Shown here: positions 28,092-33,876 of the stretch, in pieces | Position numbering within the stretch: position 1 is the stretch's first letter | Layout of the letters: every line of letters begins with the position of its first letter | NCBI GenBank assembly: GCA_009780315.1 | Contig: WRAH01000003.1 | Location: 1-64,000, forward strand | Reading direction: 5' to 3' | Length of the DNA stretch: 64,000 nt | From: Defluviitaleaceae bacterium | Lineage (GTDB): Bacteria > Bacillota > Clostridia > Lachnospirales > WQUN01 | Made by a program: the position numbers and the translations under genes | Notes under the pieces: model-generated | What the model saw: only the letters and a program-made list of their open reading frames with translations | What the model was told of the DNA's origin: nothing | The model's database searches: none

Positions 28092-29000
28092 TCAATTTCC
28101 AAGTCTATGCATTGCGTTTAAGCAGTTTAGGGCAGAGATTCTTAATGCTTCGTCAATATGTATCTCAGTTGTTTCATCCTCTAATGCCCAAAGCACATTT
28201 TCAATAGTGGTTTTTTTCATGTTGGCACAAATTATTTGCGGATAAGGGAAGTGAAATATTTTTCTAGGGTTTTGCTGTTCCAGGGCATAGCGTATCCCTT
28301 CTTCGGTTACAACAATCAACTCAGAGCTGTCAGAAGATTTAGCATAGCTAAGCATTTCACCCGTACTGCCCACAAAATTCGCAAAAGCAAGCACTTCTTT
28401 TCGGCATTCTGGATGTGCCACAACAGGTACATTAGGGTGCTTAATTTTAAGCTCCATTATATGCTCAGGTAATATTTTGTTGTGTACAATACAATATCCT
28501 GGATAAATAATAAACTCCTTTTCAGGGCATTTATCGGCAATGTATGCCGATAAATTTCGGTCAGGTAAAAAAATAATCGTTCTCTCTGGCAGCTTGCGAA
28601 TAATATCAAAAGCATTGGAAGATGTAACGCAAACATCACAAAGAGCCTTAACTTCAACTGACGTATTGATGTAGCAAACCACTGCCCCATCAGGATATTG
28701 CTTTCTTAACGCTTTTATCTTATTTATGTCAGCCATGTCCGCCATTGGACAGCCTGCATCTGCAACAGGTAATAGTACCTTCTTATGCGGAGAGCGTATT
28801 TTAGCTGATTCTGCCATAAATCGAACGCCACAAAATATAATTAATTCTTGTCCTGTCTCTTTGGCTATTTTACTTAAATAGTATGAATCACCAACATAGT
28901 CGGCTATTTGCTGTATCTCTGGGCATTGATAATAATGTGCTAGAATTACCGCATTTTTTTCTTGCTTTAGCTTTTTTATTCTTTCTTCGATGCTGTCCAT
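28092..29000 (-). CDS. nadA: Quinolinate synthase A
   Basis: 302 residues. AHYYQCPEIQQIADYVGDSYYLSK near the start, ADAGCPMADM (cluster Cys), YPGYC, HPEC, TGEMLSYAK and ICANMKKTT (third cluster Cys region) mark the [4Fe-4S] quinolinate synthase. It condenses iminoaspartate with dihydroxyacetone phosphate. First gene of the nadA-B-C operon, with promoter and palindromes in the 29003-29090 region facing the divergent nrtR-like gene. Confidence 0.94.
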   Translation of the reverse strand: MDSIEERIKKLKQEKNAVILAHYYQCPEIQQIADYVGDSYYLSKIAKETGQELIIFCGVRFMAESAKIRSPHKKVLLPVADAGCPMADMADINKIKALRKQYPDGAVVCYINTSVEVKALCDVCVTSSNAFDIIRKLPERTIIFLPDRNLSAYIADKCPEKEFIIYPGYCIVHNKILPEHIMELKIKHPNVPVVAHPECRKEVLAFANFVGSTGEMLSYAKSSDSSELIVVTEEGIRYALEQQNPRKIFHFPYPQIICANMKKTTIENVLWALEDETTEIHIDEALRISALNCLNAMHRLGN

Positions 29001-29019
29001 AGCTACCCTCCCATTAAAT

Positions 29020-29083
29020 ACATATTATCTACTTGATAATATGTGTGCTTATTATGATAATGATAATAAGTAATTTTGTCAAG
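29020..29083 (-). promoter_or_regulatory. nadABC promoter with two palindromic operators
   Basis: Minus-strand promoter TTGACA (29082-29077), 17 bp, TATCAT (29059-29054). Palindrome 1, CTTATTAT-N7-ATAATAAG (29048-29070), covers the -10 and spacer. Palindrome 2, ACATATTATC-N5-GATAATATGT (29020-29044), covers the transcription start. Probable binding sites for the divergently encoded NrtR-like protein. Confidence 0.6.
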
Positions 29084-29093
29084 ACTTTTTTTA

Positions 29094-29122
29094 TTGCTTC
29101 TCTATCTTGAGTGGGGTAAAAT
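29094..29122 (+). promoter_or_regulatory. Promoter of the nrtR-like gene
   Basis: TTGCTT (29094-29099), 17 bp, TAAAAT (29117-29122), then AAGGGGAAG and the ATG at 29147. Confidence 0.5.
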
Positions 29123-29146
29123 AAAAGTAGAGAAAGGGGAAGTCGG

Positions 29147-30016
29147 ATGAGTTTCAACGATAAGGATTTTTTAGTTACGGTTAATCTTGCATTATTCAAA
29201 GTTGAAGATGTAGAAAAGGATAACGTAAAAAAACTTCCTCAAAAGGAAATCATGGTTCTTTTGGCAAAAAGAGATAAAGAACCATTTAAAAATTGTTGGC
29301 TGTTTCCATATGGCTTAGTAGACGTTAGTGAAAGCTTAGATGATGCGGTGTACCGCCAGCTAAAAGAAAAGACAAACCTTGAAAATATTTATTTTGAGCA
29401 GCTGTATACATGGGGGGCGGTAGAACGTGACCCTACCGCAAGAACCATAGCAACGTCATATTATGCGATTGCTCAAAAGGAAAGCATAAAAGAGTGCGCT
29501 ATAGCCAAGAGGGATAGCCTTAAATGGTTTAGTATAAAAAAACATTCGGTATCAGTTGAAAAGATTTCTGATTTTCAAATGATATCCGAATATATAATTA
29601 CATTGCACAACGATGCAGACATGATTACCATATCATATCGCGTGACGGAAGAAACCATAGTCAGCGGCTTTGAGAAAAGGAAAAAATATAGTTATGACCT
29701 ATGCGATAACTCGAATGAGCGCATGGCCTATGACCACATAAAAATATTAGACTATGCTCTAGATCGCATAAAAAACAAAACCCTTTATACCAATATTGCT
29801 TTTGGCTTAATATCTGAAAGTTTTACCTTGACCGAACTGCAACAGGTTTTTGAAGTATTATTGGGTAAAACACTTACCAAGTCCAACTTCCGCAGATGGA
29901 TTAGCAAAAAGGTAGAAGAAACGCAAATAACAAAAAAGACAGGCGCATACCGTCCGTCTAAATTATTTAGGCTCAAGAAGGATTCAATTATTGAAGATAT
30001 TGATTCTTTTATGTAA
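29147..30016 (+). CDS. nrtR: NrtR-like Nudix-domain transcriptional regulator of NAD synthesis
   Basis: 289 residues. An N-terminal Nudix fold (residues about 5-145) with GLVDVSESLDDAVYRQL in the Nudix-box position. The catalytic REUxEE is degraded to RQLKEK, so hydrolysis is unlikely and the domain probably senses an NAD-related metabolite such as ADP-ribose. The C-terminal half is a winged helix with the NrtR-type LTELQQVFEVLLGKTLTKSNFRRWI segment and basic tail. It faces the nadABC operon across palindromes, the expected NrtR arrangement. ATG 29147 with AAGGGG upstream. Confidence 0.85.
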   Translation: MSFNDKDFLVTVNLALFKVEDVEKDNVKKLPQKEIMVLLAKRDKEPFKNCWLFPYGLVDVSESLDDAVYRQLKEKTNLENIYFEQLYTWGAVERDPTARTIATSYYAIAQKESIKECAIAKRDSLKWFSIKKHSVSVEKISDFQMISEYIITLHNDADMITISYRVTEETIVSGFEKRKKYSYDLCDNSNERMAYDHIKILDYALDRIKNKTLYTNIAFGLISESFTLTELQQVFEVLLGKTLTKSNFRRWISKKVEETQITKKTGAYRPSKLFRLKKDSIIEDIDSFM

Positions 30017-30070
30017 TAATAACAACTTCTTTTGCGGAGATAGCAAAGGGCGAAAATAAAAAAGACAAAA

Positions 30071-30099
30071 TAAGCCGTGGCTTTATTCAGCACGGCTTA
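30071..30099. terminator. Convergent hairpin between nrtR and the metallopeptidase gene
   Basis: TAAGCCGTG (30071-30079) with CACGGCTTA (30091-30099). On the minus strand it is followed by a T-rich run, so it mainly serves the metallopeptidase gene. Confidence 0.6.
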
Positions 30100-30127
30100 G
30101 CGGTTTTACAATGAAGTAATGATTTTG

Positions 30128-31255
30128 CTATTGAAAAGTCATAGCCATTATTTGCTCTGTTTCGTCCGCCCATAATGACCTTACGCGCAGTACCCGCCCC
30201 GCTTCAATGTTCGGCTCTAAAAGTGACCGAGGCATAGGATATTGATACATATGTGCATTCGGGTCTGTGCTAAACGCTATATAAACATCCGGGAGGTTCT
30301 CCACGCCCCAATTCTCCAAAATAGAGATTGCATCCCCAACGATTATCGGCACTATATCGGTGCCTAAACTCTGGTATACCAGCCTTTGTCGTGGTTGCGC
30401 TTGGATATTTTCAGAGTCGGTCATTTCTGTTAATAGCTGCGCTAAATTAAGTGAATCTCTATCACGCAAAATGTCGCGCACTATACTAAATTGAAACCAG
30501 CCGTAAATTTCAAATGTGAACACTTCCGCAAAGCGTCCTGTATCTACTGCTTCACGCATAAAATCAAGGTGATGTACATTTTCTGCGGGAGGGGTTATGT
30601 TACTTAAAATATATTCGACAGTTTCTTCTAGTGCGTACAGCTTTTCTTCTTCACCAAAATATGTCCAAAACGCAATAGCAAATGAGTTTGCCAGCATTTC
30701 TTCCTCTACCATGTGCCGTGATTGCACTGTGCCGTTGCTATGAGTAATCATGTGACCCAATTCGTGTATCGTATTATACCATTGAAAGTAAAGCTCAAAC
30801 CTATCTCTTGCTAACTCACCCCCAAGCAGTGAATGTATCATTTCGTTTTGCTCTTGAGTGCCTTGCCCATAAAGTCCATTAACAATGACTGCAACAGGTG
30901 AGGATGTGTCTGCTTCGATTATGTGGTCAAGTGCATTGGGGCCAACTACCCACAAATCTCTCATATTAATATATGGTCTGCCATTTCTCACTCTGATGCC
31001 GTCACGCATCACCATGCGTTCATTGCCAATATAAACAACAGGTTCTTTTGTGTGAAACACTATGTCAAACATACCATTATTATCATAAGTAAATGTTGCA
31101 TCGCCTTCATGATAAGTGAATACAACACCAAGGTCATCATCTATAGACAGCCAGCTTAAATGTAATCTAAATAAAAGCCATCCGCCCACAGCAAGAACAA
31201 CAACCAAAACACCTATCCCTAATAAGATTTTGAATTTTTTACTTTTTACCATCAT
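30128..31255 (-). CDS. Membrane-anchored HExxH metallopeptidase-like protein
   Basis: 375 residues from ATG 31255 (GGAG 9 bp upstream). One N-terminal membrane helix (about residues 9-30, LLGIGVLVVVLAVGGWLLF), then an extracellular domain with NTIHELGHMITH (HExxH zinc site) and, about 20 residues on, VEEEMLANSFAIAFW. The latter supplies a plausible third zinc ligand Glu, as in gluzincins. An N-terminal segment about 60-130 has a copper-amine-oxidase/stalk-like look. I do not recognise a named family. Its promoter region is a diverged copy of the nadA/nrtR control region. Confidence 0.62.
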   Translation of the reverse strand: MMVKSKKFKILLGIGVLVVVLAVGGWLLFRLHLSWLSIDDDLGVVFTYHEGDATFTYDNNGMFDIVFHTKEPVVYIGNERMVMRDGIRVRNGRPYINMRDLWVVGPNALDHIIEADTSSPVAVIVNGLYGQGTQEQNEMIHSLLGGELARDRFELYFQWYNTIHELGHMITHSNGTVQSRHMVEEEMLANSFAIAFWTYFGEEEKLYALEETVEYILSNITPPAENVHHLDFMREAVDTGRFAEVFTFEIYGWFQFSIVRDILRDRDSLNLAQLLTEMTDSENIQAQPRQRLVYQSLGTDIVPIIVGDAISILENWGVENLPDVYIAFSTDPNAHMYQYPMPRSLLEPNIEAGRVLRVRSLWADETEQIMAMTFQ

Positions 31256-31342
31256 AAACAAAAGCTCCTTTGATTTTGAGTGCTGTACAAACAGCGTCGT
31301 TGCACTATGCCTTCTGCCTGTGCGTGTCGATACTGCTCATTT

Positions 31343-31508
31343 TAACCTTCCCATCAAATACATATTATCTATTTGACCATAAGACGCTTATTATAGTAAT
31401 GATAATAAGTGTCTTTGTCAAGATTTTTTTATTCCTTCTCTGTCTTGAGTAAGATGAAATAGAAGTAGCGGAAAGGGTAGTAAGATGAGTTTCAACGATA
31501 GGTGTATT
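31343..31508 (+). repeat. Diverged copy of the nadA-nrtR control region, with nrtR start remnant
   Basis: Aligns by eye with 29003-29170 over about 165 bp at roughly 80% identity with few gaps. It keeps the palindrome CTTATTAT-N7-ATAATAAG (31387-31409) and the minus promoter TTGACA-17-TACTAT (31421-31393); the second palindrome is broken. It also keeps the nrtR ATG and the first codons MSFND (31485-31499), after which the reading frame stops at 31529. The same promoter now faces the metallopeptidase gene. Confidence 0.75.
31393..31421 (-). promoter_or_regulatory. Promoter of the metallopeptidase gene inside the nad-type repeat
   Basis: Minus strand TTGACA (31421-31416), 17 bp, TACTAT (31398-31393), overlapping the CTTATTAT palindrome as in the nadA promoter. 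Confidence 0.5.
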
Positions 31509-32304
31509 TTACATTCTCTTTCACGGTAATTTTTTCTTGCTGAAAAACGCGTGGGGATGTCCCTGAAAATTTGCGAAACACTCTGATGAAGTGCGCTTGG
31601 TCAGCAAAGCCATTGCTATATGCTATATCCAAAAGTTGGTTTGATTTTTGATAGACCAACTGATTCCCTATTTTTTGAAACCGTTTTATTGAGCGCAAAG
31701 TCTTAGGTGTATAGCCTGTATAGTATTCGACATTGCGTGTGAATGTTTTTGTATGTACTCTGTGTCTGGCACAGAATGATTGTATAGTTATTTTATCGTC
31801 TGATTCCAAAAAATCAAGAATCAGGTTTGCCTTGTTTGTGTATTCATCCGTAACTTCAAGGTTAGTACATAAAGCCTTTTCAATGCTATTAACAATGCGC
31901 TCAGTGGTTGCCTCGTCTGAAATTGCTAGTTTGAGACTTTGTGCCAAAGGCGTTGAAACTTCAAATAAGTTCATAACTTTATCATTTATGCTGGCTAATG
32001 ATTTATTGACAAACGGATAAAAGCCAAAAGGATGAAACGATATTCCAAAAATACGGATTTTTCCCGTGTGACGAATGTAACTGTGCTTTCCTCTTAAACC
32101 GTTTATATGAAATGGAGCGGCAAGTATACAAAGAGAATCAACCTCATAGACTATGTTCCCTGATAAGTTCAATATTATATCAATACAATCTGTTGGCAGC
32201 AGCTTATAGCGAATATTTGCATCCTCAACTTCCAAATGCCATATGAATTTTACCCAAGGTTTAAGGTGTTCATCTTTTATAGAATATCGTGTGATATTAA
32301 GCAT
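31492..32304 (-). CDS. AraC-family transcriptional regulator
   Basis: 270 residues from ATG 32304 (GAGGGGTGA upstream; the frame is open to 32391). An N-terminal beta-rich sensing part with PTDCIDIILNLSGNIVYE, and a C-terminal pair of HTH motifs (FCARHRVHTKTFTRNVEYYTG and LLDIAYSNGFADQAHFIRVF) typical of AraC DNA-binding domains. The type resembles DUF6597-bearing AraC regulators. Its last codons run into the edge of the duplicated nad control region, so a rearrangement may have set its 3' end. Target unknown. Confidence 0.85.
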   Translation of the reverse strand: MLNITRYSIKDEHLKPWVKFIWHLEVEDANIRYKLLPTDCIDIILNLSGNIVYEVDSLCILAAPFHINGLRGKHSYIRHTGKIRIFGISFHPFGFYPFVNKSLASINDKVMNLFEVSTPLAQSLKLAISDEATTERIVNSIEKALCTNLEVTDEYTNKANLILDFLESDDKITIQSFCARHRVHTKTFTRNVEYYTGYTPKTLRSIKRFQKIGNQLVYQKSNQLLDIAYSNGFADQAHFIRVFRKFSGTSPRVFQQEKITVKENVKYTYR

Positions 32305-32381
32305 CTTTGAGTCACCCCTCAATCCTATATTTAGTATAGCATTTTTGCGAAGATAGTTCAATTGAAGATTATACTCCAGTT

Positions 32382-33143
32382 CTACACCCATCCTCTAAAT
32401 CTAAATGTCATCATTTCGACACAATGGCTAGTCAGCCAATCAAGCCAAGGTGTTTCATGTCCACGAGCAGTTTTTATAGACTCCATCAACCATTGTTTCT
32501 GTTCTTCTGAAAGTAATGGCATGATTGTCTTAAAATCAGCTTCTGTCTTAGGCCTTACACTTGGATGTTCTGAAGAAAATTTATCTGACTTGTAAAACAG
32601 TATAATTTCTGGTGCAAGATAGGGTATACCGTCACGGTGCAAAATCCCTTTATCTAATGGGCGTGTTATCCGTGGATTTTCCTGTACCACAAAATCATTG
32701 CCCGCTTTTGCATCAATTTCTAGCTCGATAAATTCAATATTGTCTTGTACAAGCCATTTGCGGGTTTGATAGGTATATACCTCACCCACACCCCCTTGCA
32801 GGCGGTCAAGTTTGTGTAGCACATTCGGCAAGCCATCTTTTTTTATGACCCACATGTTTTTACAATCACGCCAGTAATTGTCCGTGATGTCCTCTATCTT
32901 ATAAAATAAATGTTGCGTTATTGGTACACCCTCTTCCATAAATCTGCCGTAAACAGTCCAATCTCTATCCATAAAAAACTGCACTATACGCTGTTTATCA
33001 TCATTATACACAACAATGTCAAAATCCCCATGTGAGCGAAGTTCCTTACCCACAAACATATCAAGACCATAGCCGCCGCATACAGCATAGTCAAAGCCAC
33101 AGTCCTTAAATATGTCTTGTGCTTGTAGTATTACGTTATTCAT
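32382..33143 (-). CDS. Nucleotidyltransferase-fold protein A, aminoglycoside-adenylyltransferase-like
   Basis: 253 residues from ATG 33143 (AGGAGATG upstream). The early VCGGYGLDMF and HGDFDIVVYNDD (DxD metal pair) give a minimal nucleotidyltransferase core as in ANT(2'')/LinB-type enzymes, followed by YLAPEIILFYKSDKF and DFKTIMPLLSEEQKQWL. Such proteins can adenylylate small molecules including aminoglycosides or lincosamides; the substrate here is not known. It is a paralog of the next gene, arranged head to tail 38 bp apart. Confidence 0.75.
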   Translation of the reverse strand: MNNVILQAQDIFKDCGFDYAVCGGYGLDMFVGKELRSHGDFDIVVYNDDKQRIVQFFMDRDWTVYGRFMEEGVPITQHLFYKIEDITDNYWRDCKNMWVIKKDGLPNVLHKLDRLQGGVGEVYTYQTRKWLVQDNIEFIELEIDAKAGNDFVVQENPRITRPLDKGILHRDGIPYLAPEIILFYKSDKFSSEHPSVRPKTEADFKTIMPLLSEEQKQWLMESIKTARGHETPWLDWLTSHCVEMMTFRFRGWV

Positions 33144-33180
33144 CAATTTCATCTCCTTAAAAATAATGATATAAGTATTT

Positions 33181-33876
33181 TTATAACAATCCATCCAACC
33201 ATTCATACCCATCTGGGTAAGTGGCGTTTATTGCATTTATTAACCATGCTTTGCTTTCGGTTGATAGTAACGGCATAATCGCCTTAAAGTCGGCAGGTGT
33301 TTTATTTGCATGAATTTCATGGGTTGTATATGCTTTTGACGATTTCAAGAATAACACCACTTCTGGTGCCATGTATGGCACACCGCAATCATTGAATAAA
33401 ATCGCCTTATCTAACTTACGCAAGATACGCTTGTCCTTACCCAGCAAGAAATGATGACTATTCTTTTCATCTAAAACAATTTCAATGAAGCTAAAATCTG
33501 TTTGGGTGTTTGATAAGATTTCAAACCCATAAAAGTCAATCGCACCTTCTCTTGGTTTTAGCGCAAATTGGCAATCACCTTTAATCGCCCATATAATCCT
33601 TATGTCATCTAGCTTGCTGTCGTTTTCATCGGCTATAGGGGTAACTCCACCAAGGCTTTGTGGTTCAAAAATTCTTTTGTAGACGGCAAAGCCATTCTTT
33701 TGTAAAAGCTCCACCACATCCCTTTTGTTTTCTTGGAATACGGACACATCCAAATCACTATGGGTGCGCATTGTCTTGCAAGCAAACAATTCCAAGGCGA
33801 AACCGCCGCAAATGTAGTAAGGAAAGCCACAATTTTTAAATAAGTTGTGCGCTTGTAAAATCAGTTCATTCATCAT
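33181..33876 (-). CDS. Nucleotidyltransferase-fold protein B, paralog of A
   Basis: 231 residues from ATG 33876 with GGGAG 7 bp upstream. Same layout as its neighbour: ICGGFALELF, HSDLDVSVFQEN (DxD), YMAPEVVLFLKSSK, DFKAIMPLLSTESKAWL. Clear sequence similarity across the whole length points to a local gene duplication. Expressed with protein A and possibly with the TetR gene upstream (24 bp gap). Substrate unknown. Confidence 0.75.
   Translation of the reverse strand: MMNELILQAHNLFKNCGFPYYICGGFALELFACKTMRTHSDLDVSVFQENKRDVVELLQKNGFAVYKRIFEPQSLGGVTPIADENDSKLDDIRIIWAIKGDCQFALKPREGAIDFYGFEILSNTQTDFSFIEIVLDEKNSHHFLLGKDKRILRKLDKAILFNDCGVPYMAPEVVLFLKSSKAYTTHEIHANKTPADFKAIMPLLSTESKAWLINAINATYPDGYEWLDGLL

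Follow-up and report, generated by a model that had tools for sequence, protein, structure and literature searches.

A Duplicated nadA–nrtR Control Region Precedes a Putative Zinc Peptidase Gene in a Defluviitaleaceae Bacterium

The nadA–nrtR Locus and Its Control Elements

The window analysed here, a stretch of 64,000 nucleotides from a Defluviitaleaceae bacterium (assembly GCA_009780315.1, contig WRAH01000003.1, positions 1 to 64,000), carries the quinolinate synthase gene nadA (28092..29000, minus strand), identified by a NadA Pfam match with an E value of 2.9e-117 and by an NCBIfam NadA match above the cut-off, and followed on the same strand by nadB and nadC. Divergent from nadABC, and with two palindromes over the promoter, a linkage characteristic of NrtR, lies an nrtR-like repressor gene (29147..30016, plus strand). 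Its product combines a degenerate N-terminal Nudix-like domain (NUDIX, 36 bits, E 7.1e-9) with a C-terminal NrtR winged-helix domain (PF21906 NrtR_WHD, 65 bits versus a cut-off of 27, E 6.7e-18), and matches with an E value of 1e-24 the Shewanella Nudix-family chain 3gz5/3gz6, which we take to be Shewanella NrtR. Since it scores 124 bits against the curated cut-off of 400 for the NCBIfam equivalog NF050029, the protein belongs to the wider NrtR family and not to that equivalog. The catalytic box is impaired, GX5EX7REUXEEXGU reading G-x5-E-x7-RQLKEKTNL in this protein; an impaired Nudix box is described for NrtR NAD regulators, and the motifs of the family differ greatly between groups (PMC4666351). 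Like its closest relatives, this NrtR has about 70 inserted residues separating the Nudix domain from the winged helix, which the aligned Lachnospiraceae/Ruminococcus homologues lack.

The control region shared by both genes contains two operators in tandem, with the common design TATTAT-N7-ATAATA and a spacing of 27 bases. Operator O1 (TATTAT-GATAATG-ATAATA, 29050..29068, extended 29048-29070) covers the -10 element of the nadA promoter (TTGACA-17-TATCAT, 29054..29082, minus strand), while operator O2 (TATTATC-TACTT-GATAATA, 29023..29041, extended 29020-29044), a perfect inverted repeat, is located just downstream of the expected nadA transcription start. The initial annotation had described a palindrome here, which is present, but overlooked that there are two of identical design. 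A promoter-like pair facing nrtR, TTGATA-17-GATAAT, occupies 29033-29061.

A Derived Copy of the Divergent Region

The segment spanning the nadA start, the divergent control region and the nrtR start (28987..29174) recurs on the same strand at 31327..31512, 2.3 kb away, as a copy of about 185 bases in which 148 of 185 aligned columns are identical (80%) with two 1-nt gaps. This agrees with the recurrence at roughly 80% identity reported initially for about 165 bp (29003-29170 and 31343-31508), an extent that proves too short, as on the left the match extends for another 16 bases, into the first five nadA codons. It starts within nadA codon 5 and takes in about nine codons of nrtR, recognisable similarity being gone after MSFND. 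Identity drops to chance immediately outside both ends, which suggests breakpoints at these positions and not a match shortened by slow decay. An origin of the similarity in AT-rich promoter composition, which the initial annotation had itself named as the finding that would overturn its reading, is ruled out, because the local alignment score of source and copy is 210, compared with a maximum of 49 in 300 first-order-Markov shuffles (mean 26.8, sd 3.8) and with no more than 41 for the other 500-base pieces of the window. The segment is likewise no dispersed repeat and no mobile promoter element, since source and copy are the only two places in the whole genome (2.9 Mb, 73 contigs) that match the segment over more than about 30 bases.

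The duplication took in the entire divergent nadA–nrtR region. That the copy is the derived member of the pair follows from the flanks, the source being bordered by intact genes and the copy holding only their first codons. The nadA start survives as an 11-codon leader ORF, MSSIDTHRQKA* (31305..31340, minus strand, read from 31340 down to 31305), beginning MSSID where the original reads MDSIE, and the nrtR start as a 14-codon ORF, MSFNDRCILHSLSR* (31485..31529, plus strand). The latter is the nrtR ATG with MSFND and a quick stop that had been noticed at the outset; the nadA remnant had been missed, and with it the fact that both divergent halves were copied. Duplication and not convergence, as originally proposed, is clear because the starts of both genes were carried along and persist as remnants. 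The direction and the ends of the event can thus be read directly, as the source is still in place nearby and the copy holds the truncated gene starts.

At its right end the copy contains the stop codon (31492-31494) of an AraC-type regulator gene (31492..32391, minus strand, identified by domain search and sequence). The stop and the last residue or residues of this gene (31492-31503) derive from the duplicated segment, so the C-terminus of the AraC-type protein may have been altered by the duplication. Further along, at 32382-33876, stand two related nucleotidyltransferase-like genes in tandem, the first of them weakly similar to aminoglycoside/lincosamide nucleotidyltransferases.

Retained and Lost Elements of the Copy

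The promoter TTGACA-17-TACTAT (31393..31421, minus strand, from 31421 to 31393) is found in the copy as first described, and so is the palindrome CTTATTAT-N7-ATAATAAG at 31387-31409. The retained O1 (TATTAT-AGTAATG-ATAATA, 31389..31407) covers the -10 element of this promoter, which is weaker than its source counterpart (TACTAT, 4/6, versus TATCAT, 5/6). The palindrome has here become longer, with 14-nt arms containing one mismatched pair, AAGACgCTTATTAT-N7-ATAATAAGtGTCTT, that reach 31381-31415, compared with 8-nt arms in the source. Most of the added flanking positions in 31381-31415 differ from the source on both sides. One palindrome was thus kept, as initially claimed, but the second is damaged, a point overlooked at that stage: O2 (31363..31381) retains an intact left half, and its right half has changed from GATAATA to GACCATA. 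The nrtR-facing promoter-like pair was looked for in the copy and is absent.

Source and copy do not differ at any of the 22 positions that make up the O1 arms and the -35 element (P 0.005 with the 37 differences placed at random, a post hoc value). Since a run of 16 bases at the nrtR start with no evident function is likewise unchanged (P 0.024), and since the elements were chosen afterwards, this conservation is only suggestive as a sign of selection.

The Putative Zinc Peptidase Gene

The copied promoter faces, as had been stated, a metallopeptidase gene (30128..31255, minus strand), which is intact, lies directly downstream and has a ribosome site, AGGAG, nine bases ahead of its ATG. No other promoter-like sites were seen on the peptidase strand between the copy and the gene, and a search for a structured leader RNA ahead of the gene gave a fold no better than shuffled sequences (z -0.58). 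The product, of about 375 residues, is recognised from motifs, model and relatives as a putative membrane-anchored zinc peptidase with HELGH and a downstream EEEMLANSFA. It shows the HExxH pattern with a putative third Glu ligand, and H163, E164, H167 and E185 are invariant in four sequences, namely the peptidase and three distant relatives aligned at 25-34% identity. In a single-sequence structure model with a mean pLDDT of 40.9, the predicted N-terminal membrane helix is the only confident part. The Pfam match to Peptidase_M78 is sub-threshold (14.2 bits versus a cut-off of 22, E 0.039). The Peptidase_M78 and IrrE-ImmA zinc peptidases are alike in having HExxH followed by E..AN.FA, whereas the present protein has an N-terminal membrane anchor and extra sequence and matches below the curated cut-off; it is most suitably described as a putative HExxH zinc peptidase, distantly zincin-like, of no named family. 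Plasmid relatives of the peptidase were searched for and none was found.

The Palindromes in the Light of NrtR Relatives and of the Genome

NrtR relatives were collected from named genomes and from genomes of the same order. Upstream of most of them, when up to one mismatch is allowed, lies the site TA[GT]TA-N9-TA[AC]TA, of which a shuffled region would contain 0.01-0.4 by chance. It often occurs in tandem, about 32-34 bases apart, and over promoters of the TTGACA...TATCAT type; several relatives have one full site only. The sites of the window share this 19-bp geometry, with T instead of G in the middle of the half-site. Because inverted repeats of this 19-bp geometry are found on the nrtR promoters of most relatives themselves, the reading of the palindrome as a predicted NrtR operator is well supported, and the earlier proposal of a NAD-type operator in the promoter of the peptidase gene gains from this comparison of sites. 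Among the collected homologues, those of Lachnospiraceae/Ruminococcus type (L041-L071) have a clear TAGTA-N9-TACTA operator upstream, often tandem and overlapping the promoter, and several of these nrtR genes are not adjacent to nadB/nadC.

The two closest relatives, L041 and L042, with 46-48% identity, have in the winged helix the same NFRRW stretch as the protein encoded here, and their nrtR genes head an operon of nicotinamidase (pncA)-, pncB-, nadD- and nadE-like genes, as named from the translations. The half-sites upstream, GATATTATC, are of the TATTATC type and can be read both as a direct repeat and as an imperfect inverted one, so that more than one exact form of the operator is conceivable.

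In the genome itself, four sites match TATTATC-N5-GATAATA with at most one mismatch, three of them at this locus and one within an oxidoreductase-like coding sequence. The two-mismatch sites checked (L021-L022, L079-L081 and L083-L087, about half of all) lie in coding sequence, a perfect TATTAT-N7-ATAATA on contig C10 falls between genes, and at the nadE-like locus no operator site is present even with three mismatches allowed. The promoter of an iron-transporter-like permease gene (contig C25, 1480-1560 of L003) bears an inverted repeat of the GGTTAGT...ACTAACC type, and in its -35 region a stretch of 20 bases is the same as in the nadA promoter.

Among 60 related genomes, the control region has no copy beyond two weak matches of less than 50 bases (L010 and L011); the former, which adjoins an AraC-type gene and an aldo/keto-reductase-like gene, looks like chance. 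The one other genome of the same genus searched gave no match to nrtR or nadA, and nadA is present in 2 of 24 other family members searched. Close relatives of the AraC-type and peptidase neighbours were absent from the genomes searched. These relatives have neither the control region nor a closely similar peptidase, and the copied arrangement is absent from them.

Probable Recruitment of the Peptidase Gene and Competing Explanations

Control of the peptidase gene by NrtR, which the initial annotation had raised only as a possibility, is plausible, and recruitment into the NrtR regulon through the copied control region, which would have given the gene the nadA promoter and one NrtR operator and placed it under NrtR repression, is in our judgement the probable explanation. 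In this account, the divergent control region of about 185 bp was duplicated together with the first codons of both genes and landed between the araC-type gene and the peptidase gene. There the promoter that had faced nadA was kept along with the operator over its -10 element, and the nrtR-facing promoter and the second operator decayed. We infer that the peptidase gene would be transcribed from the copied promoter and that NrtR would bind the retained operator and repress it, the repression being lifted, as for nadABC, by a NAD-derived effector, presumably ADP-ribose or NAD. Since just one full operator is left, repression would be less tight than that of nadABC, and given the weaker -10 element and the loss of the second operator and of the nrtR-facing promoter, a weaker response or partial decay is possible.

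The chief rival to recruitment accepts the duplication and holds that the copied region is a decaying relic that neither drives nor regulates the peptidase gene any more. The divergence of 20%, the broken O2, the weakened -10 element and the lost nrtR-facing promoter all fit such decay, which we nevertheless regard as unlikely, given that the -35 element and both O1 arms are untouched, that O1 has longer palindrome arms in the copy (14 nt, compared with 8 nt at the original locus), and that a good ribosome site and an intact gene of 374 codons follow directly. It is less probable still that the copied promoter drives the gene constitutively, with NrtR binding too poorly to matter. Here the single full operator with its imperfect inner pair (TATTATa...GATAATA) and the frequency of paired operators in NrtR relatives have to be set against the relatives with a single full site and against the source O1, which has the same kind of inner mismatch.

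Sites of the Fur/PerR type have a consensus of GATAAT repeats, and O1 contains GATAATGATAAT, which resembles them in sequence. The palindromes are nonetheless very improbable as sites of a metalloregulator of this type instead of NrtR: O2 has no GATAAT-type repeat yet follows the same TATTAT-N7-ATAATA design, the TAGTA half-sites of NrtR relatives are arranged in this geometry too, none of the other promoters checked in this genome has a close match, and the repeat at the iron-transport-like promoter described above is different.

Recruitment into the NrtR regulon could be taken further, to a link by which NrtR would couple the NAD status of the cell to a membrane-anchored zinc peptidase through a copy of its own control region, with the lengthened palindrome reflecting selection. 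We put forward this physiological role only tentatively, as a possibility on which we would not rely.

Comparison with Known Systems and Significance

NrtR of Shewanella (3gz5/3gz6) and of S. sobrinus (PMC12735969) resemble the present system in the Nudix-like domain with an impaired box, the NrtR winged helix, the position of the gene beside NAD genes and the palindromic operators on the promoter. They differ in that the half-site here is TATTAT(C), in a tandem pair, and that the predicted targets include a peptidase gene, brought in by the copying of a control region. BtAraR of Bacteroides (PMC4666351) has the same fold and shows that the NrtR family is able to control non-NAD genes; however, it forms a separate branch with its own effector, whereas here the regulator is linked to nadABC and the target would have been added by DNA duplication.

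That regulons can grow by the copying of control regions is already known, as is the family of the regulator; what is new, in detail only, is the target gene and the variant of the operator. The locus offers a well-preserved example of such growth, with the source next door and the truncated starts of both flanking genes in the copy. If NrtR controls the copy, a peptidase would be added to a regulator that in its closest relatives is otherwise tied to NAD genes, and the locus would help to establish which operator belongs to this NrtR branch.
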